Below are positions 53,082 to 62,341 of a stretch of 64,000 bases of DNA, piece after piece. Source of the stretch: Agromyces cerinus (GTDB taxonomy: Bacteria; Actinomycetota; Actinomycetes; Actinomycetales; Microbacteriaceae); assembly GCF_016907835.1 (NCBI RefSeq), contig NZ_JAFBCT010000001.1, positions 2,604,001 through 2,668,000 on the forward strand, given 5' to 3'. Every line of letters begins with the position of its first letter. Within the stretch, counting starts at the first letter, position 1. Under the pieces are notes generated by a model. That model searched no databases. It was not told the DNA's origin and saw only the letters and a list, made by a program, of their open reading frames with translations. The translations under genes and the position numbers were made by a program.

Positions 53082-53107
53082 TCCGCTCCTTCGACGAGTT
53101 GCTTCAT

Positions 53108-53127
53108 CCTAACCAAGCACTTGCTTG
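53108..53127. promoter_or_regulatory. KstR2-type operator and etfB promoter
   Basis: ACCAAGCACTTGCT (53114-53127) fits the AnCAAGnnCTTGnT consensus known for KstR2 at every fixed position. It abuts the leftward -10 candidate TAGGAT (53113-53108) of the etfB operon and lies in the divergent region facing the acyl-CoA dehydrogenase gene at 53246. Confidence 0.75.
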
Positions 53128-53233
53128 CCCGAAAAGGGGCCTGTTTTGTGGGATGCCGCCAAACCCGCTCGCGCAGCACCGGGCCGCACTCGTGGAACCC
53201 GCACAGTTCATGCCCACTCGAGAGACGCCGGGT

Positions 53234-53239
53234 TACGCT
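53234..53239 (+). promoter_or_regulatory. -10 box TACGCT of a leaderless promoter
   Basis: TACGCT ends 6 nt before the ATG of the acyl-CoA dehydrogenase at 53246; no Shine-Dalgarno is present. Confidence 0.55.
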
Positions 53240-53245
53240 GCGGGC

Positions 53246-55042
53246 ATGAGTGGATTCCGACCCCCTGTTGCAGATATCGCCTTCGCCCTCGAGCATGTCG
53301 TGGACTACGACGCCGTCGCGCAGCTGCCCGGCTTCGAGCACGCCGACCTCGAGACCGTCACCGAGATCCTCGACGAGGCCGGCAACTTCATGGCCGAAGT
53401 CGTCGCCCCGACCAACCGAGCCGGCGACCTCGAGGGTTCGAAGCTGAACTCCGACGGCTCCGTCACCACGGCCACCGGCTTCAAGGAGGCCTACTCGGCC
53501 TACGTCGACGCCGGCTGGGGCTCGGTGCCGCTGCCCGAGGCGTTCGGCGGCGGCGGATTCCCGCGCACGATCGGCCTCGCGCTCCAGGAGCTCATGGCGA
53601 CCGCGAACATGGCCTTCGCCCTCGCGCCGCTGCTCACGCAGGGTGCGATCGAGGCGCTGCTGCACTACGGCAGCGACGAGCAGAAGCAGCAGTGGCTGCC
53701 GAAGATGGTCACCGGCGAGTGGGCCGGCACCATGAACCTCACCGAACCGCACGCCGGCACCGACGTCGGCGCGCTCACCACGAAGGCCGTCAAGCGCGAC
53801 GACGGCACCTACGCCATCACGGGCCAGAAGATCTTCATCACCTTCGGCGACCACGACCTCAGCGAGCAGATCGTGCACCTCGTGCTCGCTCGCACCCCCG
53901 ATGCGCCGGCCGGCACCAAGGGCATCTCGATCTTCATCGTGCCGAAGTTCCTCATGAACGACGACGGCTCGCTCGGCGAGCGCAACGGCGTGCACACCGT
54001 CGGCGTCGAGCACAAGATGGGCATCCACGGTTCGCCCACGTGCGTGCTCTCGTACGAGGACGCGACCGGCTACCTCGTCGGTGAAGAGAACATCGGCATG
54101 CGCATCATGTTCGTCATGATGAACAGCGCCCGCCTCTCGGTCGGCATGCAGGGCCTCGCGGTGTCGGAGCGCGCCTACCAGCAGTCGCTCGACTACGCGC
54201 GGGAGCGCATCCAGGGCCGCGCGATCGGCGCCACCCAGGACTCCCCCATCATCGACTTCCCCGACGTGCGCCGCATGCTCATGACGCAGAAGGCATACAT
54301 CGCCGCGATGCGCCGCATGATGCTCCTGACCGCGACCTACACCGACGTGTCGACGCACCACCCCGACCCCGCGACGCGCGCTCGCGCCAACGAGATCGTC
54401 GGCCTGCTCACGCCCATCAACAAGTCGTTCGGCACCGACCTGGGCAACGAGCTCACCTCGCTCGCGCTGCAGATCCACGGTGGCATGGGCTTCATCGAGG
54501 AGACCGGCGCGGCACAGCACTACCGTGACGTGCGCATCGCCGCGATCTACGAGGGCACCAACGGCGTGCAGGCCGCCGACCTCGTCGGCCGCAAGCTCCC
54601 GGTGCGCGACGGGGCATCCGCTCTCGAGTTCATCGCGTCGATGCGCGAGCTCGACGGCGAACTCGCCGCTGCCGGTGAGGAATTCGCCTCGATCCGCACG
54701 CAGCTCGGCGCCCAGCTCGACGCGCTCGAGCAGACCACGATGTGGATGCTCCGCACCGGCGCCACCGACCCGAACGCCGTGCTCTCGGGCTCCACGCCGT
54801 ACCAGCGCATCTGGGGTCTCGTGGTCGGCGGATGGCTCATGGCGAAGTCGGCCCTCGCCGCTCGCGGCCTCGACGACGACGGCACCGCCGAGACGCAGCT
54901 GCCGCTCGCACGGTTCTACGCCGAGCAGCTGCTGCCGCAGGCCGCAGGCCTCGTCGGCGCAGCAACCGCCGGGTCACGCGACCTCTTCGCTCTCAGCGGC
55001 GAGGCGCTCGGCAACGCAGCAGCCCGCGGAGTTCGCGTCTGA
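53246..55042 (+). CDS. Acyl-CoA dehydrogenase, long (DmdC/FadE5-like) type
   Basis: 598 residues, the length of the dimeric FadE5/DmdC group rather than the classic 380-residue type. It has NLTEPHAGTDVGALTTKA (FAD site), LQIHGGMGFIEETGAAQHYRDVRIAAIYEGTNGVQAADLVGRKL with the catalytic Glu in YEGTNG, and an extra C-terminal helical domain (about 470-598). Substrates of the group include medium to long acyl-CoAs and methylthiopropionyl-CoA. It is divergent from etfB and probably regulated with it. Confidence 0.92.
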   Translation: MSGFRPPVADIAFALEHVVDYDAVAQLPGFEHADLETVTEILDEAGNFMAEVVAPTNRAGDLEGSKLNSDGSVTTATGFKEAYSAYVDAGWGSVPLPEAFGGGGFPRTIGLALQELMATANMAFALAPLLTQGAIEALLHYGSDEQKQQWLPKMVTGEWAGTMNLTEPHAGTDVGALTTKAVKRDDGTYAITGQKIFITFGDHDLSEQIVHLVLARTPDAPAGTKGISIFIVPKFLMNDDGSLGERNGVHTVGVEHKMGIHGSPTCVLSYEDATGYLVGEENIGMRIMFVMMNSARLSVGMQGLAVSERAYQQSLDYARERIQGRAIGATQDSPIIDFPDVRRMLMTQKAYIAAMRRMMLLTATYTDVSTHHPDPATRARANEIVGLLTPINKSFGTDLGNELTSLALQIHGGMGFIEETGAAQHYRDVRIAAIYEGTNGVQAADLVGRKLPVRDGASALEFIASMRELDGELAAAGEEFASIRTQLGAQLDALEQTTMWMLRTGATDPNAVLSGSTPYQRIWGLVVGGWLMAKSALAARGLDDDGTAETQLPLARFYAEQLLPQAAGLVGAATAGSRDLFALSGEALGNAAARGVRV

Positions 55043-55061
55043 TCCGACCGCTCAGCACGAC

Positions 55062-55095
55062 CGATGCGCCCGCCCTCTCGAGGGCGGGCGCATCG
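55062..55095 (+). terminator. Stem-loop terminator after the acyl-CoA dehydrogenase
   Basis: Perfect 15-bp GC-rich arms (55062-55076 and 55081-55095) with a CTCG loop, 19 bp after the stop codon. It also faces the convergent transglycosylase gene. Confidence 0.85.
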
Positions 55096-55124
55096 TCGTT
55101 CACGCGGCATCGACGCGCATCGAG

Positions 55125-55142
55125 CGGATGCCGCGGCATCCG
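55125..55142. repeat. Copy 3 of 18-bp palindrome CGGATGCCGCGGCATCCG
   Basis: An intergenic copy, here extended by one pair to a 20-bp palindrome (55124-55143), between the terminator and the stop of the transglycosylase gene. Confidence 0.75.
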
Positions 55143-55151
55143 CTGCGCGGC

Positions 55152-56051
55152 TCAGTCGACCGAGTCGGCGAACTCGAGCGCGACGGTCGCGATCTTGTCG
55201 ACGTAGTCGTTGTCGTGGTTGTACGAGAAGACGGCAGCACGCCAGCCCTCGGAGTTCGTCATCTCGCCCGACTCGCAGAGATAGCGCGCCGTCGACAGGG
55301 CCGCGTCGTCGATCTGGTTCGGGTCGGCGACACCGTCGCCGTCGCCGTCGCTGCCCCACTTCTGCCATGTCGAGGGGATGAACTGCATCGGGCCGACCGC
55401 GCGATCCCACTTGGTGTCGCCGTCGAACTCGCCGTCATCGGTGTCGTCGATCCTCGCGACGTCGGCGCCGCCGTCGAGGGCCGGGCCGATGATCGGCGGC
55501 TGGGCATTGCCGTTGGAGTCGAGCTTCGAATCGCCGTGGCGCCCGTGATCGGACTCGACGGCGCCGATCGCGGCGATCGTCGCCCAATCGAGACCGCACT
55601 CGGCGTCCTCCTCGGCGATCATGACGTGGGCCAGCGCATAGGCCGACAGCGCCCGCTTGGGAATGCCGGTGGCCTCGGAGATGGTCGCGAGCCACTCGGG
55701 GTCGACCGACGGCATGGGCGCCAGCTTCGAGCCGGAGAGTCCGGTCGGCTCCTCGGGAGTGCCGGCATCGCCGTCCGTCGGCTGCTCATCGACCTCGGCC
55801 TCGGGCGGCGTGGTCAGTTGCGGCATCGCCACACCCGGTCCGTAGGCGTCTGGCGCTGCGAAGCCGTCGGGGTTGGTCGCCGTGCCGACGAGGTTCACCG
55901 CGACGACACCGCCGACCACCAGTGCGACCGCCCCGACCACGATGCCGACGGATGCCGCGGCGCGCCGGACGAGCCGCCATTTCGACCCCGGCGCTCGGCC
56001 CGGGCGACGCTCTCCGTACTCGTCGTCGTCGAAATCGTCATGCCAGGACAT
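55152..56051 (-). CDS. Membrane-anchored lytic murein transglycosylase (MltB-like)
   Basis: 299 residues. A charged cytoplasmic N-terminus, one helix (about 31-55), an acidic Pro-rich linker (62-108) and a lytic transglycosylase domain with catalytic E166 in AIGAVESDHGRHG, then GPMQFIPSTWQKWG and DGDGDGVADP, which looks like a calcium loop. It should cleave peptidoglycan glycan strands at the cell surface. GGAG lies 10 nt before the ATG. It is downstream of the PspA pair on the same strand. Confidence 0.9.
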   Translation of the reverse strand: MSWHDDFDDDEYGERRPGRAPGSKWRLVRRAAASVGIVVGAVALVVGGVVAVNLVGTATNPDGFAAPDAYGPGVAMPQLTTPPEAEVDEQPTDGDAGTPEEPTGLSGSKLAPMPSVDPEWLATISEATGIPKRALSAYALAHVMIAEEDAECGLDWATIAAIGAVESDHGRHGDSKLDSNGNAQPPIIGPALDGGADVARIDDTDDGEFDGDTKWDRAVGPMQFIPSTWQKWGSDGDGDGVADPNQIDDAALSTARYLCESGEMTNSEGWRAAVFSYNHDNDYVDKIATVALEFADSVD

Positions 56052-56201
56052 CGGTGGCTCGCTCCGTTCAGGCGTGGGTGCAGGGTTCCCACCGGGTCGT
56101 TCTCCGCCGGCTCATCCGAGCCCGGCGATCACAACCGCTCCTTCACAGTACCCGCGCATCGCGGCTGCCGCATCAGTCGCGGCAGACGCCCGGGTACTGC
56201 G

Positions 56202-56975
56202 TCACCCCGCTCGCCCGATGCTCAACCACCCGTCGGGCCCCGGACGCTCCGTTGCACCGCCGGCCTGCCCCGATGCGCCCTTCAGCGCCTGCAGCTGGCG
56301 TTCGATCTCCGCCTGGGCCGAGACCGCGGCGAGCTGACGCTCGATGTCGGCGTCGGGTGCGGCCGTGAGGTCGGTCAGGGCGCCACTGGCGAGCAGTTCA
56401 TCGGTCGCGGCGGCGCGGGCCTGCATCTGCGCGACGCGGTCGCGCGCGCGATCGAGGCTCGACCCGACGTCGGTGATGGTGTTGCTGATGCCGGACACGG
56501 CCTCGTTGGCGCGCACCTGCGCCTCGGATGCCGTGTACGTCGCCTTGATGGTCTCCTTCTCGATGCGGAACGCGGCCACCTGGTCGGTGAGCCGTCGCTC
56601 CCGGTCTTGCAGCTGCGCCGTCTGCCGATCGAGCGCGGTGAACTGCTGCTGCAACTGCGCGACCTGGCCTTCGAGCATGGCGCGACGCTCGAGCGCGGCC
56701 CGTGCGAGGTCTTCGCGCCCCTGCGCGAGCGCCTCCGCGGCCTGCGAACCCAGGCGCTGATAGCGCGCGCCCATCTCTTCGCCCTGCAACTCGATGCGCT
56801 TCTTGGCGGTCGCGACCTCGGCGACCGCGAGGCGCACCTGCTGAAGCAGTTTCACCTGCTGGTCGTAACTGTCGTCGAGGGTCTCACGCGGGTCCTCCAT
56901 GCGATCGAGCGCCTTCGAGGTCTTGCTCCGGAAGATGGTCCGCATCCGCGCGGAGTTGCTGTTGCTGGTGCTCAT
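56202..56975 (-). CDS. PspA/IM30-family phage-shock protein
   Basis: 257 residues, nearly all long coiled-coil helices (MEDPRETLDDSYDQQVKLLQQVRLAVAEVATAKKRIELQ in outline, then ALERRAMLEGQVAQLQQQFTALDRQ). PspA proteins polymerise on stressed membranes and limit proton leakage. The ATG overlaps the stop of the membrane-anchored gene upstream, which probably recruits or regulates it. Confidence 0.9.
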   Translation of the reverse strand: MSTSNSNSARMRTIFRSKTSKALDRMEDPRETLDDSYDQQVKLLQQVRLAVAEVATAKKRIELQGEEMGARYQRLGSQAAEALAQGREDLARAALERRAMLEGQVAQLQQQFTALDRQTAQLQDRERRLTDQVAAFRIEKETIKATYTASEAQVRANEAVSGISNTITDVGSSLDRARDRVAQMQARAAATDELLASGALTDLTAAPDADIERQLAAVSAQAEIERQLQALKGASGQAGGATERPGPDGWLSIGRAG

Positions 56976-57604
56976 GGTCGGTTCCCCTCATCTCGAACGG
57001 TGGAAGTCGTGGGTGGTCGCGTCACTGCGACGCGACCGTCACGTCGGTTCAGTGCCTGAAGTTCTTCGATGCCCGCCTGGAGCGCCGCGACCTCGCGGTC
57101 GACGTCCGAGCCGAGCATGGACAGGGCGTCGTCGGTCGTGCCCGAGAGATCGGATGCCACGGCATCACGCACCCGTCGCACGAGCGCCTCGACCTGATCG
57201 ACGCGGCGACGAGCCGCGGGTATCTCCTCGGCGAGCACAGCGGTACTCGTCTCGGACTCCATCAACCGCAGCTGCAGGTCGAGCACGCCGCCCTCGTCGC
57301 TGATTCGCCGGAAGAGCCGTGGCAGCTCGCCGCGGGCACCGCCCGATCCGCCCGATTCGCCGGCGAGATCGACGGCGGCGGCGCCGCTGCGCAATGCGTC
57401 ATCGAGACGCACCCGCAGGGCGAGCACCGTACGCTGCGGCCCGTGGCTCACTCGCGCGCGGGCGCGCAGCGCCGTCGCCCCGACGCGACTCCGTCTGATG
57501 CGGCGCACGAGCGCTCGCACGACGAGCACGAACGTCACCATGACGGCGATCGAGAGCAGCACGATCGTGCCGAGCCCGATCAGGATCGCTTCGATGCCGG
57601 TCAC
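56972..57604 (-). CDS. Membrane-anchored coiled-coil protein encoded with PspA
   Basis: 210 residues: one N-terminal helix (about 4-30), a basic stretch (RALVRRIRRSRVG), then a cytoplasmic region with two predicted coiled-coil segments (about 90-140 and 150-195). I do not recognise a named family, but the position (4-bp overlap with pspA) and layout resemble the anchor proteins of actinobacterial Psp systems such as PspM. The GTG at 57604 has GGGG 8 nt upstream; nearby in-frame GTGs at 57610 and 57613 are alternatives. Confidence 0.75.
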   Translation of the reverse strand: MTGIEAILIGLGTIVLLSIAVMVTFVLVVRALVRRIRRSRVGATALRARARVSHGPQRTVLALRVRLDDALRSGAAAVDLAGESGGSGGARGELPRLFRRISDEGGVLDLQLRLMESETSTAVLAEEIPAARRRVDQVEALVRRVRDAVASDLSGTTDDALSMLGSDVDREVAALQAGIEELQALNRRDGRVAVTRPPTTSTVRDEGNRP

Positions 57605-57806
57605 GTGCACCACCCCGCTCAATTCCGACAGCACTGCCGAGAACGCGATATAACGCGTCTCGCACAAGATACTCCGGAATCGCCGGAACCGTGAGCCCCG
57701 GCGCCCGATTCGCAGGCAGCACGCAGGGGCGACGCCGACGCCGCCCGTTCAGTTGATGATCTCGCGGCGCTGCGAGAGGAGCGGGTCGGTGCACCATCCC
57801 ACTCGG

Positions 57807-58694
57807 CTAAGGCCCGCTGATCGACCGGAGCGCATACTGCCGCACCTGCACGAACCGGGTCGCGGCGCACGTCGACAACAGGGGTTCGGAGCGGGTCTCC
57901 TCGAGCTCGACGACGAGGTCGCCACGGTCGCCGCCGAGCCGAACGCGCCATCCGGTGTCAGCCGCCTCCTCGGCGATCGGCGCATACGAGTCGATGCGTT
58001 CGTCGCCGAGCGCCTCACGGGCGAAGTGCTGGGCGGCCTGCACCGGATGCGTCAGCGAGCTGCGCCCCCGGTATCGGTCGGGCACGATGCGGCCGGCGTC
58101 GAAGGCGTCGGCGATGCGCACGGGGTCGCCGTCGTCGGCGTACCCGTAGTAGAGCCCGTGCGGGAAGACCACCATGGTTCCGGCGAACCGGTCGCCGCCG
58201 AGGTGCGAGCACTCCCAGGTCTCGTCAGGGCGCGCTTCGGCGAGCGCGGCGACCACCCGACGACCGCGCACCGCGCAGCATCGGTCGTGCCGGGCATGAG
58301 TGCAGACGCAGTAGACGGGCTGCGACGACGGCGTGCCCGTCGACCCGTCGAGCGGCACGTCGAGCAGGGCCGCCGCATTCGGCACCTCACCCCAGACGAC
58401 GCGCTCGCGACCCGGCCGTGAATCGACGATCGCCCACCGCTGCACCGTCGGAGCAGCGCGCCGACCGGTGCGGCGGATCGCGAGCGGCCGCATGCCGGCG
58501 CCCTCGATGCGCCGCACCAGCGCGCGCCCGAGTTCGCGGTCGAACGGCGCGTCGAGCAGGGCGTTCTGCCCCCAGCTGCCCGCCACTTCGATGAGGAACC
58601 AGCGCAGCCCGCGCGGGCCGGTGCCGACGAGCGGATCGCTCCGCTCCCGAGCGCGATCGCTGCACGGTGCCCAGTGCTCGACGGCGAGAGTCAC
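57807..58694 (-). CDS. Sucrase/ferredoxin-like thioredoxin-fold [2Fe-2S] protein
   Basis: 295 residues of the PF06999 family. Candidate cluster ligands are C11, C129 and C131 (VYCVCTHARHDRCC), C139/C140, C162 and H164 in WECSHLGGDRFAGTMVVFPHGLYYG, the family signature. Thioredoxin-fold ferredoxins of this type (Apd1-like) bind 2Fe-2S with Cys/His ligands. The GTG at 58694 overlaps the JmjC-type oxygenase stop, so the two are translationally coupled; I infer that it delivers electrons to, or keeps reduced, the iron oxygenase. Last gene of the repeat-peptide operon. Confidence 0.83.
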   Translation of the reverse strand: MTLAVEHWAPCSDRARERSDPLVGTGPRGLRWFLIEVAGSWGQNALLDAPFDRELGRALVRRIEGAGMRPLAIRRTGRRAAPTVQRWAIVDSRPGRERVVWGEVPNAAALLDVPLDGSTGTPSSQPVYCVCTHARHDRCCAVRGRRVVAALAEARPDETWECSHLGGDRFAGTMVVFPHGLYYGYADDGDPVRIADAFDAGRIVPDRYRGRSSLTHPVQAAQHFAREALGDERIDSYAPIAEEAADTGWRVRLGGDRGDLVVELEETRSEPLLSTCAATRFVQVRQYALRSISGP

Positions 58695-59926
58695 GCGGGT
58701 GCCACCACGAACCCCTCGCGCACGAGGCGGTGCACCACGACGACCGCGCTCTCGGCGTCGAGGCCGGGCAGCTCGCCCGCCCTGACGGCGCCTCCCGCTG
58801 CGAGCCGGCGCACGGCCTGTTCGGCCTCGATCGGGAGCGACAACGTCTTCGCACGCCCCACGATGCGCACACGGTCGTCGATGGTCGTGACGAGCACGGG
58901 CAGCGATGCGCGCCAGCGCACGGCCGTCGACGCATCCAGCGCCTCGAGCGCCTCGAGCGTCGCGAGCGGCGCGACCGGTTCCGCGCGGGTCTCGCCGTCG
59001 AACCGGTTCGCGAGCACGGCGGCCGGCCGCGAGGCATCCGTCTGCTGCAGCGTCTCGACGAGTGCCTGCACCGTCTGCGCGACGATGGGTGCGAGCGCAT
59101 CCTCGTCGCGCAGGTCGATGCCGAGCGGAAGCGAGGTGCGCAGCGCGGCATTCTCGCCGACCCCGCGCAGCAGCACGTCGACCACGTCGGCGCGAGTGAA
59201 GGGCGCCATGCCGATCGTCAGGTGCACGGATGTCGCGCCGAGCGCCGTCGCCGAATGGATCCACCCGCGCGGCAGGTAGAGCGCATCGCCCGGGCGCAGC
59301 ACCGCATCGATGACCGGCTCCCCCGTGGCCGCACGCGCCACGGCGCCGCGGTGCTGGTCCCACGGCTGGGCGCGCAGCGGATCGACGTGCACCGGCGCGT
59401 GGATGCGCCAGTGCTTCTCGCCCGAGATCTGCAGCACGAAGACGTCGTGGGTGTCGTAGTGCGGGTCGAACCCCTGCGACGACGGCGGCGTGACGTAGGC
59501 GTTGACCTGCGCCGGGTGGCCGAGGTCGTCGATGAGCTCGCGTGTGTAGTCGATGATCGGCGGCCACAGCCGGTGCAGTCCCTGCAGCACGATGGTCGCG
59601 CCGCCGGCGAACTCGGCGAGCACCTTGTCGCTCGAGACCTGGTCCGCGACCTCGGCCCCGAAACCACCCGAGGCGGTGTACGCGGATGCCGCGAGCACCG
59701 CGCCCTCGTTCGCCATGCGGATGAACGGCGTGCGCACCCCGCGACGCGTGATGAGCTCGTCGACGGCGGCGACCGAGAAGAGGTCGTCGAAGCCGGCCCC
59801 GAGCTCGGCGGCGGTCGAGAGCAGCGGTTCGCGACCCCAGTACCGTTCGGCGAACTCGTCAGCCGGGACACGGATGCAGCGCGAAAGCGCGGGCCGCTCG
59901 ATCGGCCCGCGCTCCGATTCGGTCAC
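58691..59926 (-). CDS. JmjC-type (RoxA-like cupin) iron/2-oxoglutarate oxygenase
   Basis: 411 residues. A JmjC_2 domain (about 15-240) has the iron triad H156 and D158 (PHYDTHDVFVLQISGEKHW) with H224 (PRGWIHSA), then a dimerisation and winged-helix C-terminus as in the ribosomal oxygenases YcfD/RoxA, which hydroxylate Arg or His in ribosomal proteins. Here the gene starts with a GTG whose first base is the last base of the TAG stop of an 85-residue repeat protein gene, making that small protein the best candidate substrate. Ribosomal protein hydroxylation is the alternative. Confidence 0.87.
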   Translation of the reverse strand: MTESERGPIERPALSRCIRVPADEFAERYWGREPLLSTAAELGAGFDDLFSVAAVDELITRRGVRTPFIRMANEGAVLAASAYTASGGFGAEVADQVSSDKVLAEFAGGATIVLQGLHRLWPPIIDYTRELIDDLGHPAQVNAYVTPPSSQGFDPHYDTHDVFVLQISGEKHWRIHAPVHVDPLRAQPWDQHRGAVARAATGEPVIDAVLRPGDALYLPRGWIHSATALGATSVHLTIGMAPFTRADVVDVLLRGVGENAALRTSLPLGIDLRDEDALAPIVAQTVQALVETLQQTDASRPAAVLANRFDGETRAEPVAPLATLEALEALDASTAVRWRASLPVLVTTIDDRVRIVGRAKTLSLPIEAEQAVRRLAAGGAVRAGELPGLDAESAVVVVHRLVREGFVVAPA

Positions 59927-60183
59927 TACGCCGAACCGTCGGCGCCGCCGTCGTGACCACCGGGGTTCGCACCGCCATCGGCGACGCCCTCCCCCGCTGC
60001 CGCGGACCCGTCGGCGCCGCCGTCGTGACCACCGGGGTTCGCACCGCCGTCGGCGACGCCCTCTCCTTCAGCGGCCGATCCGTCGGCGCCTCCATCGTGG
60101 CCCTTCGGGTTGGCACCGCCATCGGCGGTGCCTTCCCCTTCGGCTCCGGGCTCGAGGGTGATGTCGTCATCGTTGATCGTCAT
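59926..60183 (-). CDS. Small repeat protein, possible multi-core substrate of the adjacent oxygenase
   Basis: 85 residues: a 12-residue leader-like start (MTINDDDITLEP), three consecutive 24-residue repeats (13-36, 37-60, 61-84) and a final Ala. The repeat is built as xAxGEGxADGGANPxGHDGG followed by ADGS, with no Cys, Lys appearing once and no aromatic residue. The ATG at 60183 has GAGGAA 6 nt upstream, and TACGCT (60217-60212) is a -10 candidate. It is the first gene of an operon with a JmjC oxygenase and a ferredoxin-like protein. I know no named family; conserved Asn, His and Asp in each repeat are plausible hydroxylation sites. Confidence 0.8.
   Translation of the reverse strand: MTINDDDITLEPGAEGEGTADGGANPKGHDGGADGSAAEGEGVADGGANPGGHDGGADGSAAAGEGVADGGANPGGHDGGADGSA
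59932..60147 (-). repeat. Three 72-bp tandem repeats
   Basis: Each 72-bp unit encodes one 24-residue repeat of the small protein. Units 2 and 3 are almost identical at the nucleotide level; unit 1 (the leader-proximal one) differs most, including Lys for Gly after NP. Confidence 0.85.
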
Positions 60184-60298
60184 GAGATTTCCTCTCCTCG
60201 CCTGCCCGCTCAGCGTATCGAGGGCGCCGTTCCTGCGGAATGGGTTGACGAATCCGATCGCAGCGATGTGAGCACGATCGGGGATCCGCTCGATGAGC

Positions 60299-60700
60299 TC
60301 ACTGCGCTCGCAGAGCATCGAACGGCGCGATCGTGACGATGCCTTCCACCTGGCGCGCGAGTTCGGGGTCGAGGGTGATGAAGGCGTCGGCCTGCAGCTT
60401 GGCGACGGCGACGAATTCGGCGTTCGTCGTATCCTCCCAGTCGAACAGCTCGGCGACCTTCCAGGCGACCGCACGAGACACGCGGTCGCCCAAGAGACGC
60501 ACACGCACCGACGTGAGCCGGTTCAGTTGCACGTGCGCAGCATCGCCGCTCAGCTCTCCACTGCGAACTCCGCGGTACAGGTGCGACATCACCCGCGAGC
60601 GGAGCACGTTCGGTGCGACCAGCTGGTGGGAATCCGGCACGGTGACCCCCTCCTGCACCAGTCGCAGCGCCGTAAGGGTGTCGATCGCGAATCGTGTCAT
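60299..60700 (-). CDS. PIN-domain protein (VapC-like)
   Basis: 133 residues with PIN-like acidic positions: D6 in RFAIDTLTALRL, the central TTNAEFVAVAKLQADAFITLDPELA region with E and D residues, and an N-terminal APNVLRSRVMSHLYR helix. VapC toxins cleave RNA, and family members of this length usually have an antitoxin encoded just upstream. None is visible between 60701 and the LysR stop at 60782, so this is an orphan or a non-toxin PIN protein. GGAG lies 6 nt before the ATG. Confidence 0.75.
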   Translation of the reverse strand: MTRFAIDTLTALRLVQEGVTVPDSHQLVAPNVLRSRVMSHLYRGVRSGELSGDAAHVQLNRLTSVRVRLLGDRVSRAVAWKVAELFDWEDTTNAEFVAVAKLQADAFITLDPELARQVEGIVTIAPFDALRAQ

Positions 60701-60781
60701 GGCCTGCTCCTCCGCCGGTCCCTGCGGCACACGATACGACGACGCTCACGGGAGCGCATCGCGCCTACGTCAGGGTCATCC

Positions 60782-61762
60782 TCACCGAGGTTCGACGGAT
60801 GCCCCGGAGACGCCCCGACGCTCACCGGCGAGTCGCATCGTCTCCCCCGCCCTGGCCGCGAACGACGTGGCGCTCGCGGTGATCGTGCGCCGCATGACCT
60901 CGACGGCCGCGGTCGGCGCGACGTCGGCCGAGCAGGCGAGGCTGATCGAGCGTTCGAGCGCCGGTGTCCCGAGCCCCGGCGTTTCCAGCCGCACCGATCG
61001 CAGACCCGGCCGGTCGATGAGCACCATCGCGGGCACGATCGCGACGCCGAGCCCCCGTTCGACGAACCGCAGCACGGCATCCATCTCAGCCCCTTCGAGC
61101 ACCACCTCGGGCGCGAGGCCGGCTGCGCGGAACGCCGCGTCGGTGGCGCTGCGCAGGTCGTACGACGAGCTGAAGACGATCTGCGGCAACGCCGCGACAT
61201 CCGCAAGTTCGATGGTGTCGCGCGCGGTGATCGGCGGCGCGCCGGCCGATGAGATGACCACGAGCTCCTCGACGAGCAGCGGGGTCACGGTGAAGCGCTC
61301 GGCGGTCGAGGCATCCGTGGTCGTGATCAGCGCCAGGTCGAGCTCGCCGCCGGCGAGTTCGTCGAGGAGCCGGCGCGAGCCCTGTTCCGAGAGGTGCAGT
61401 TCGATGGCCGGATGCTCCGCGTGGAACGCGCTGAGCACCTCGGCGACGAGGCTGATGCAGAGTGTGGGGGTGGCGCCGAGCCGCACCCGGCCGCGCTCGA
61501 GGCCGGCGAGTTCGGCGAGTTCTCGCCGCACCGATTCGGCGTCGGCGAGCATGCGCCGGGCGAGCGGCAGCAGCGACTCCCCCGCGGTCGTCAGGGTGCT
61601 GCCGCCGCGGGCGCGGTGGAACAGGTCGGCGCCGAGATCGTGCTCGAGTGCGGCGATCTGGCGGCTCAACGAGGGCTGGGCGAGGTAGAGCTCCTCAGCG
61701 GCCCTGGTGAAGTTGCCGAACCGGGCCACCTCGACGAAGCTGCGGAGTTGCTCGAGGTTCAT
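60782..61762 (-). CDS. LysR-family transcriptional regulator
   Basis: 326 residues. Typical N-terminal helix-turn-helix (NFTRAAEELYLAQPSLSRQIAALEHDLGADLFHR in outline) and a C-terminal ligand domain. TACGGT (61774-61769) lies 6 nt before the ATG, another leaderless candidate. It is divergent from the HxlR gene, with 129 bp between them; its target could be that gene, the flavoprotein farther right, or neither. Confidence 0.9.
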   Translation of the reverse strand: MNLEQLRSFVEVARFGNFTRAAEELYLAQPSLSRQIAALEHDLGADLFHRARGGSTLTTAGESLLPLARRMLADAESVRRELAELAGLERGRVRLGATPTLCISLVAEVLSAFHAEHPAIELHLSEQGSRRLLDELAGGELDLALITTTDASTAERFTVTPLLVEELVVISSAGAPPITARDTIELADVAALPQIVFSSSYDLRSATDAAFRAAGLAPEVVLEGAEMDAVLRFVERGLGVAIVPAMVLIDRPGLRSVRLETPGLGTPALERSISLACSADVAPTAAVEVMRRTITASATSFAARAGETMRLAGERRGVSGASVEPR

Positions 61763-61825
61763 ACCGATACCGTACGCGCATCGTGGCCGAGACATCCATG
61801 CCGTAGACGGATGCCCCGGCGGTCG

Positions 61826-61844
61826 GTTACTCAGGGTACGTAAC
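61826..61844. promoter_or_regulatory. Inverted repeat in the LysR/HxlR divergent region
   Basis: GTTAC-N9-GTAAC (61826-61844). It lies about 50 bp before the HxlR start and could be bound by either regulator. TAGCGT near 61855 is a -10 candidate for the HxlR gene. Confidence 0.45.
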
Positions 61845-61891
61845 GCACGACCTGATAGCGTCCCTGAAGATCCCGGCATCTGGAGGCCACC

Positions 61892-62341
61892 ATGACGACC
61901 GACTCCATCCGCGTGCTCTCGGACCGGCCCGTCGACCCGGTCCTGGAGCACGTGGGCAGCGAGGCGTGCAGCGTCGACAACCCGGCGAGCCGCGTCATCC
62001 GCGAGACCCTCGCCCGCGTGGGCGACAAGTGGAGCATGCTCGTCATCGGGGTGCTGCACGACGGCCCCCTGCGATTCACCGAACTGCAGCGCAAGGTCGA
62101 CGGCATCTCGCACCGCATGCTCACCCAGACCGTGCGCAGCCTCGAGCGCGACGGCCTGGTCACGCGCACGAGCTACCCCGAGATCCCGCCCCGGGTCGAA
62201 TACGCGGCGACGGCGCTCGGCCGTTCGCTCTCGGTGCCCGTCATCGAGCTCGCCCGCTGGGCGGCCGCGCACCACGACGACATCCTCGACGCCCGCGAGG
62301 CGTTCGACGACGAGCACGAGGCCTCCGCAGCACTTCGATAG
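61892..62341 (+). CDS. HxlR-family transcriptional regulator
   Basis: 149 residues with the HxlR winged helix (RVGDKWSMLVIGVLHDGPLRFTELQRKVDGISHRMLTQTVRSLERDGLV in outline). One cysteine (C26) in an N-terminal extension, EACSVDN, could be a redox switch as in thiol-sensing HxlR proteins. GGAGG is 5 nt before the ATG. It is followed on the same strand by the flavoprotein gene, with its own promoter and palindrome between. Confidence 0.9.
   Translation: MTTDSIRVLSDRPVDPVLEHVGSEACSVDNPASRVIRETLARVGDKWSMLVIGVLHDGPLRFTELQRKVDGISHRMLTQTVRSLERDGLVTRTSYPEIPPRVEYAATALGRSLSVPVIELARWAAAHHDDILDAREAFDDEHEASAALR

Follow-up and report, generated by a model that had tools for sequence, protein, structure and literature searches.

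A candidate substrate/enzyme module in Agromyces cerinus: an aspartate-rich repeat peptide, a JmjC oxygenase and a Suc_Fer-like protein

We analysed a 64,000-nucleotide stretch of the Agromyces cerinus genome (contig NZ_JAFBCT010000001.1, positions 2,604,001 to 2,668,000; hereafter the window), which carries an operon of three overlapping minus-strand genes encoding an aspartate-rich repeat peptide, a JmjC oxygenase and a Suc_Fer-like protein. We propose, with a probability of about two in three, that the operon is a substrate/enzyme module, usually accompanied by a [2Fe-2S] helper, in which many aspartates of the peptide are modified, probably by beta-hydroxylation. The proposal builds on the gene structure, the selection acting on the peptide, the fixed pairing of peptide and enzyme, the co-variation of repeat and enzyme, a near-constant aspartate and an intact iron triad. 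Judged from sequence, the arrangement, which recurs in many actinobacteria, suggests an undescribed kind of protein modification, in which the aspartates of the peptide are probably hydroxylated. The features of the operon are as follows (window coordinates).

59926..60183, minus strand: aspartate-rich repeat peptide gene, 85 aa, proposed JmjC substrate (translation, homologues, pN/pS)
60160..60171, minus strand: DDDI motif of the leader (residues 5-8), a proposed recognition element (pattern [DE][DENSG][DE][IM])
60076..60147, minus strand: repeat 1, 24 residues, TADGGANPKGHDGGADGS core, carrying NPKGHD (translation)
60004..60075, minus strand: repeat 2, 24 residues, VADGGANPGGHDGGADGS core, carrying NPGGHD (translation)
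59932..60003, minus strand: repeat 3, 24 residues, VADGGANPGGHDGGADGS core, carrying NPGGHD (translation)
58691..59926, minus strand: JmjC_2 (PF08007) Fe(II)/2-oxoglutarate-type oxygenase, 411 aa (Pfam E 2.2e-30)
59453..59461, minus strand: H156-Y-D158, first two iron ligands, followed by H160-D161 (homologue alignment)
59255..59257, minus strand: H224, third iron ligand (homologue alignment)
57807..58694, minus strand: Suc_Fer-like (PF06999) protein, 295 aa (Pfam E 3.3e-15)

The repeat peptide and its pairing with the oxygenase

The peptide gene begins with an ATG at 60183, immediately preceded by a purine-rich AGGAGAGGAAATC stretch, and its stop codon occupies 59926-59928. The GTG start codon of the JmjC gene shares 1 bp with this stop, and the GTG of the Suc_Fer-like gene at 58694 lies in a GTGA sequence that overlaps the JmjC gene by 4 bp; the stop of this third gene ends at 57807. 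Translation yields a peptide of 12 + 3 x 24 + 1 residues, and thereby bears out the layout given in the initial annotation, including both overlaps. The three repeats are exactly equal in length, as had been stated, but they differ in sequence, since repeat 1 carries NPKGHD in place of NPGGHD.

For 37 independent peptide-gene pairs, matched in length and with protein identity of 75% or more and DNA identity of 70-97%, the ratio of nonsynonymous to synonymous differences per site (pN/pS) is 0.135, and the 1137 differences in these pairs are distributed 162/123/852 over codon positions 1/2/3; this marks the peptide gene as real and as subject to selection. A protein search retrieved 137 relatives at E <= 1e-3, and in the 120 listed, one is labelled "BatC protein" and the others are hypothetical or nameless. 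The window peptide matches no Pfam and no NCBIfam family, and of the other peptides submitted, seven gave no NCBIfam match and four no Pfam match. Annotation based on these two databases therefore misses the peptides tried. The repeat protein is probably disordered. On a 550-base contig (P0121), an N-terminal JmjC-family-like stretch stands in frame with two DGG repeats, as a natural fusion or an assembly chimera.

How closely is the peptide tied to the oxygenase? A peptide profile (A2), built from 30 peptide relatives and no enzyme information, matches 41 of the 394 genomes of the class, and an enzyme profile (A1) matches 131. In all 41 peptide-profile genomes, the best peptide match is accompanied on its own strand by an enzyme match, which lies -8 to 334 nt further downstream. 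We then inspected two sets of loci. The class set comprises 80 regions, 78 from the 131 enzyme-matching class genomes, mostly the higher-scoring ones, and two from the window's family. A DGG-repeat peptide lies upstream in 58 of its 60 regions with an enzyme score of at least 410 bits, and the 20 lower-scoring regions divide into two with DGG repeats, ten with other Asp-rich peptides, four with other short peptides and four with none identified. The named set consists of the best 80 of at least 586 loci, and was hence picked by closeness to the query; a script found the peptide in 79 of them, and in the remaining one (L195) it is broken by a run of N. The nearest enzyme relatives in this set are four Agromyces records with 85-87% identity. 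A candidate precursor gene thus adjoins its presumed modifying enzyme in 41/41 and 80/80 loci.

Within the window's family, the enzyme is matched in 22 of 199 genomes, and the peptide is present in 20 of these 22. The two genomes without it (L022, L023) have the most remote enzymes, with 30-32% identity. The search of other Microbacteriaceae that the initial annotation had suggested thus recovers the peptide beside the enzyme, and the case that it had named as damaging, an oxygenase and a ferredoxin-like gene without a repeat peptide, was sought and was not seen among the loci examined. Wherever the enzyme has an adjacent Suc_Fer gene at these loci, a DGG-repeat or other Asp-rich peptide is located upstream (61/61 in the class set, 70/70 in the named set and 18/18 among L270-L291, a range that includes the other-class loci described below, with some loci shared between the sets).

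Moreover, the repeat type follows the enzyme phylogeny. On a FastTree tree of 178 of 180 enzyme rows (L146 and L161, shorter than 330 residues, were dropped), the repeat type changes 18 times, as compared to a mean of 75.8 after shuffling, and 0 of 200 shuffles gave a value as low. In view of the pairing and this co-variation, we are highly confident that the two proteins are substrate and enzyme. The annotated view of the peptide as the multi-site substrate of the oxygenase is most likely right, as supported by the fixed pairing and the tracking of repeat type with the enzyme tree, and its emphasis on the NP and HD dipeptides is given up. In two genomes (G536, G544), the JmjC match contains an internal stop, and in a third (G466) it is split into two pieces; the neighbouring peptides read through, and decay or sequencing error is possible.

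The N-terminal region preceding the repeats contains a short acidic motif. Among 158 distinct peptides, 123 contain the pattern [DE][DENSG][DE][IM] within their N-terminal 30 residues, as compared to a shuffled mean of 6.3 and a maximum of 12. It is present in 86/91 peptides with NP-type repeats and 5/9 with pure ADGG repeats, and is rarer with the TPG type (11/30); the cores themselves vary between lineages. Many peptides from other classes have similar acidic starts, such as LTDEDIKTTW and LSDEEIETVW, which resemble INDDDITLE of the window peptide. The acidic motif DDDIT is a proposed, and probable, recognition element for the enzyme.

The oxygenase, its candidate target residue and the Suc_Fer-like protein

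The iron triad HxD...H, already noted as intact in the initial annotation, is conserved throughout the family: among 180 aligned homologues, H156 and D158 are present in 180 and H224 in 179, the exception being a gap. The residues directly after HxD are typical of the clade, with H160 in 178/180 and D161 in 179/180. A profile of 15 enzyme homologues matches the solved structures of NO66 (2.3e-35), MINA, 4csw, YxbC, YcfD and FIH; 4csw, listed as "cupin 4 family protein", is matched over profile positions 152-405, into the C-terminal part. The JmjC sequence match and the triad place the enzyme in the JmjC_2/ribosomal-oxygenase type. We know of no substrates for a large group of bacterial JmjC_2 enzymes. 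NO66 and MINA hydroxylate histidine at C-3 (PMC9994133), and therefore hydroxylation at C-3 of aspartate would need no new type of chemistry.

Which residue of the repeats is modified? The unit ADGG[AS]NPxGHDGGADG is found in Microbacteriaceae, Cellulomonas, Mycobacterium, Rhodococcus and relatives, and other lineages have units such as ADGGATPGQHDGGADG and ADGGAEGTPGVQDGGADGG. Some lineages have near-pure ADGG arrays, with 16 units in L127. We took 139 peptides from 160 loci, corresponding to 130 distinct sequences, and scored residue absences from residue 13 on. NP is lacking in 38 of these 130 peptides and HD in 17, whereas ADGG is lacking in none. The initial annotation had named NP, HD and AD in each repeat, and of these only AD is constant across the peptides. 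None of the peptides contains Cys, Trp or Tyr in this region; seven are without His, 38 without Asn and five without Pro, and all have Asp. In addition, among 606 A-x-G-G-[ASNT] sites, x is Asp in 603 and is replaced in three (Glu in one, Asn in none), which indicates a constraint on aspartate itself rather than on charge. In G-x-DGGADG, the residue preceding Asp is His in 261 cases, Ala in 157 and others in 17. Similarly, 28 distinct Asp-rich peptides of remoter loci, scored after residue 20, lack His in 25 cases and Asn in 22, and Asp in none. Because NP and HD are lacking in some peptides and ADGG in none, aspartate is the likely target, and we regard it as the probable site of modification; if so, there is a good chance that the chemistry is beta-hydroxylation.

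The third gene is a frequent companion of this pair. Suc_Fer lies close downstream at 120 of 139 peptide loci (51/60 in the class set, 69/79 in the named set); L195, which also has Suc_Fer, is left out of this count, and L182, whose Suc_Fer-like open reading frame (ORF) sits further downstream, is included. The residues CxHxxHDxCC...HxGGDRFA are conserved in at least 126 of 127 sequences, and these Cys and His residues, together with the PF06999 match, assign the protein to the Suc_Fer-like/thioredoxin-like ferredoxins; it is a probable [2Fe-2S] thioredoxin-like ferredoxin. The family has other uses as well, since its matches (214/394 genomes of the class) outnumber the operon; the A. cerinus genome has one Suc_Fer family match and one enzyme match. 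That the protein donates electrons or protects the iron site is guesswork, because Suc_Fer is missing beside the enzyme at 19 of the 139 peptide loci, for three of which the downstream DNA covered is less than 1.6 kb. Concerning a substitute, the downstream ORFs of 19 loci (17 of the Suc_Fer-less ones, without L093 and L217, plus L182 and L139) show nothing shared beyond close relatives. At L092 and L106, the usual place of Suc_Fer after the JmjC gene is taken by a gene for a protein roughly 60 residues long (DLCMGLLAAGLPLALICDLTDP or similar), and the L092 protein has no Pfam match.

No further gene is consistently linked to the operon. When ORFs of at least 80 aa from 147 loci of up to 12 kb were clustered, the enzyme was found in 143 loci and Suc_Fer in 101. 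Two other clusters, from 48 and 32 loci, consist largely of ORFs that run antisense over the operon (41/51 and 32/32 ORFs), and were therefore taken as shadow ORFs; every remaining cluster occurs in at most 15 of the 147 loci. Among these ORFs, no conserved protease or exporter/transporter is linked, and such genes may lie elsewhere; likewise, no partner of the MNIO, B12-rSAM or arginase type appears as a third conserved gene beyond the enzyme and Suc_Fer.

We propose the following mechanism. The acidic N-terminal motif DDDIT would let the enzyme recognise the small protein. The JmjC enzyme, of the ribosomal-oxygenase type and dependent on Fe(II), 2-oxoglutarate and O2, would act on the many A-D-G-G aspartates of each molecule, with C-beta hydroxylation as the most likely modification. 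The Suc_Fer-like [2Fe-2S] protein would be an accessory that perhaps keeps the iron of the enzyme in its reduced state. The outcome would be a disordered peptide bearing a dense beta-hydroxyaspartate array. Beta-hydroxyaspartate occurs in siderophores and in calcium-binding EGF domains, and such an array would be chemically suited to hard metal ions (Fe3+, Ca2+). This chemistry suggests a metal-related role, with metal binding a speculative function. A still bolder extension, which we consider rather unlikely, is that actinobacteria use a dedicated ribosomal-oxygenase-type enzyme to make an intracellular poly-(beta-hydroxyaspartyl) protein rather than a secreted natural product; the metal binding of this Asp-rich protein would be tuned by the O2-, Fe(II)- and 2-oxoglutarate-dependent enzyme, so that it buffers iron or senses oxygen or iron. 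If true, this would be a new class of multi-site protein hydroxylation.

Competing explanations and related systems

Several observations weigh against the proposed module. In the repeats, Gly and Ala are no less universal than Asp, and Asp may serve recognition or the work of the product instead of being modified. At L139 and L141, whose enzymes belong to this clade (424 and 410 bits), the upstream ORF is acidic and non-repetitive, and Suc_Fer is absent; no peptide was found beside the remote enzymes of L022, L023, L151, L160, L161, L162 and L290. The peptide survey leaves out 33 of the 131 enzyme-matching class genomes, low-scoring as a rule. Part of the clustering on the enzyme tree trivially reflects near relatedness, and several long branches were flagged. 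Finally, 35 of the 158 distinct peptides are without the leader motif, 19 of the 139 peptide loci have no Suc_Fer beside the enzyme, and upstream dyads and 8-mers stay near background in 109 non-redundant regions, with no common regulatory motif.

The initial annotation had read the repeats as multiple cores of a ribosomally synthesised and post-translationally modified peptide (RiPP). Its placing of a precursor beside a modifying enzyme agrees with the 41/41 and 80/80 loci, and the absence of a linked protease or exporter does not fit it. The module would act like a RiPP modification step, and its membership of the RiPP class is only partial, because it has neither a linked gene for processing or export nor a known product. 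In the strict form of that reading, the cores would be hydroxylated at Asn, Pro or His of NP and HD, and the product excreted. We consider this improbable: in the branch with Microbacteriaceae, Cellulomonas and Mycobacterium/Rhodococcus, most peptides keep NP and GHD, and the enzyme relatives NO66 and MINA are His hydroxylases (PMC9994133), yet the 38 and 17 of 130 peptides without NP and HD, the nearly pure ADGG arrays (L127, with 16 units), the 25 of 28 remoter peptides without His, and the lack of a linked exporter or protease in the 147 loci all speak against it. About equally improbable is a different chemistry at the same aspartates, such as crosslinking, isoaspartate formation, D-G backbone chemistry or a beta-hydroxylation whose product is further oxidised to aminomalonate. 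Asp-Gly bonds are prone to isomerisation. In a graspetide cluster, the product of the reported Asp beta-hydroxylase SmaO is converted to aminomalonate by a second enzyme (PMC13097080), a precedent countered by the lack of a conserved second oxidase in the operon.

Two further explanations leave the peptide unmodified. In one, the enzyme is a ribosomal oxygenase, like its sequence relatives NO66, MINA and YcfD, and the acidic peptide is its regulator or a decoy (pseudo-substrate); the opening residues of the Rpl8 peptide used with NO66, NPVEHPFGGGNHQH, are similar to the NP-type repeat. The hydroxylated Rpl8 residue is H216 (PMC6006756), which lies outside NPVEH by the peptide numbering, the repeat peptides conserve neither NP nor His, and the repeat type tracks the enzyme tree; we therefore hold this explanation to be very unlikely. 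NPxxH was also considered as a mimic of the ribosomal loop (Rpl8 NPVEHPFGGG), and was rejected, as the hydroxylated His is elsewhere in that peptide and NP and His vary. In the other, to which we give the least credence, the peptide works as it is made, as a structural protein or in metal binding, and common iron/oxygen regulation keeps the operon together. The acidic, Gly-rich composition and the two presumed iron proteins adjoining the peptide gene would suit it. Against it stand the 1-bp stop/start overlap in the window and the fixed gene order elsewhere, the action of characterised enzyme relatives on proteins, the co-variation of repeat type with the enzyme tree, and the lack of an iron box upstream: 5' of the peptide, the best IdeR-like match has 7/19 mismatches (135 regions).

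The elements of the proposed module have each been reported separately: RiPP pathways with JmjC enzymes, RiPPs with beta-hydroxylated Asp, and 2-oxoglutarate oxygenases that accompany repeat precursors. In biphenomycin-type clusters (BipG/BpmG/PbsQ), a JmjC/cupin-like oxygenase is likewise encoded beside a precursor and hydroxylates it; unlike the Asp proposed here, its target is Orn, and the cluster is larger, with an MNIO, a B12-rSAM enzyme, an arginase, a TldD protease and, in bip, an MFS transporter (PMC12707348, PMC12257519). Neither tandem Asp repeats nor Suc_Fer are mentioned in the cited passages of these two papers. NO66, MINA53 and YcfD, whose structures are matched by the enzyme profile, share the iron triad; their substrates are ribosomal proteins, modified at His or Arg (PMC6006756), whereas the operon enzyme is paired with a dedicated acidic repeat peptide and has the clade-typical H160-D161 after HxD. 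SmaO targets Asp of a ribosomal peptide, as we predict for the operon, but works near the N-terminus of a graspetide precursor, and corallotide shares the repeated motifs in one precursor (five repeats) and hydroxylation by a 2-oxoglutarate oxygenase, but there a PF13640 enzyme acts on Lys after macrocyclisation by a graspetide synthetase (PMC13097080); no graspetide synthetase is conserved at the operon loci.

The Suc_Fer-like protein invites comparison with Apd1 and Aim32, which belong with PF06999. Both are [2Fe-2S] proteins with an HxGGH motif (PMC11138216). The operon protein has HxGGD (Asp in 126/127) in place of this bis-histidine motif, and its cluster ligands may therefore differ from theirs.

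As for novelty, the combination of a ribosomal-oxygenase-type enzyme, a tandem Asp-rich repeat protein and Suc_Fer was not met among the open-licence PubMed Central matches listed, subscription literature being outside the scope. The initial annotation knew of no described system of this composition, which agrees with the matches listed; JmjC RiPP enzymes as such are published (BipG, PbsQ). The nearest hint in print found in that literature is a remark, in a survey of RiPP recognition elements (RREs), that fish and algal PF08007 proteins have an RRE-like domain and that their closest bacterial homologues occur in RiPP-like contexts (PMC12710340). If the proposed module is correct, a large group of bacterial JmjC_2 enzymes would gain a dedicated substrate, and 2-oxoglutarate oxygenase chemistry would extend to dense aspartate arrays. 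Moreover, the two or three genes would provide a minimal system for the direct study of multi-site hydroxylation and its purpose, and the system occurs in named isolates of Agromyces, Curtobacterium and Cellulomonas.

Genomic surroundings and remoter relatives

The surroundings of the operon (window 53099-62341) are ordinary, with an acyl-CoA dehydrogenase, an SLT-type transglycosylase, PspA/IM30, and LysR and HxlR regulators. A 143-residue ORF on the minus strand (window 60302-60730), upstream of the operon in the same orientation, has no Pfam or NCBIfam match. A promoter and terminator scan of 57600-60800 returned none of either, and the PADLOC anti-phage defence models matched the three proteins with 0 families at E<=0.01.

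In a draw of 198 genomes of the phylum, the enzyme was matched in 28, 20 of them from other classes. These 20 other-class loci (L270-L291 without L280 and L285) have an Asp-rich peptide just upstream in 18 cases, with units such as DADGTDGDATD; the exceptions are L284, with a different two-fold repeat, and L290, in which no peptide was found. Of these 20 loci, 17 have a Suc_Fer match, in one case with a score of just 20 bits.

A further branch of the enzyme (L247-L266) has Suc_Fer in none of the 20 loci fetched. Its enzymes are preceded in 14 loci by a 35-residue peptide ending in DGTDSSSDFI or similar, and in six by a longer peptide (about 45 residues) whose end reads PSDGG...SDxND or SDVSxGRSDGND. 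The 35-residue peptides, of the MDPIEVEVEDLAEVTSRDITAGGDNDGTDSSSDFI type, are highly conserved in L247-L263 (14 loci) and occur also in L152 and L154; the one tried matches no Pfam or NCBIfam model, and they look like a separate precursor family. Peptides of the PSDGG...SDxND type end near or overlap the JmjC start in L250, L259, L261, L264, L265, L266 and L285, and the relatives of one of the ~45-residue peptides come from Nocardiopsis. In L150 and L153, the short ORFs directly before JmjC end in FLICDPDPSDDCWIVCNPNYCY and GWDWDGTDGYFVTDPDPTDAAWHPA, and are possible precursors of more classical products.

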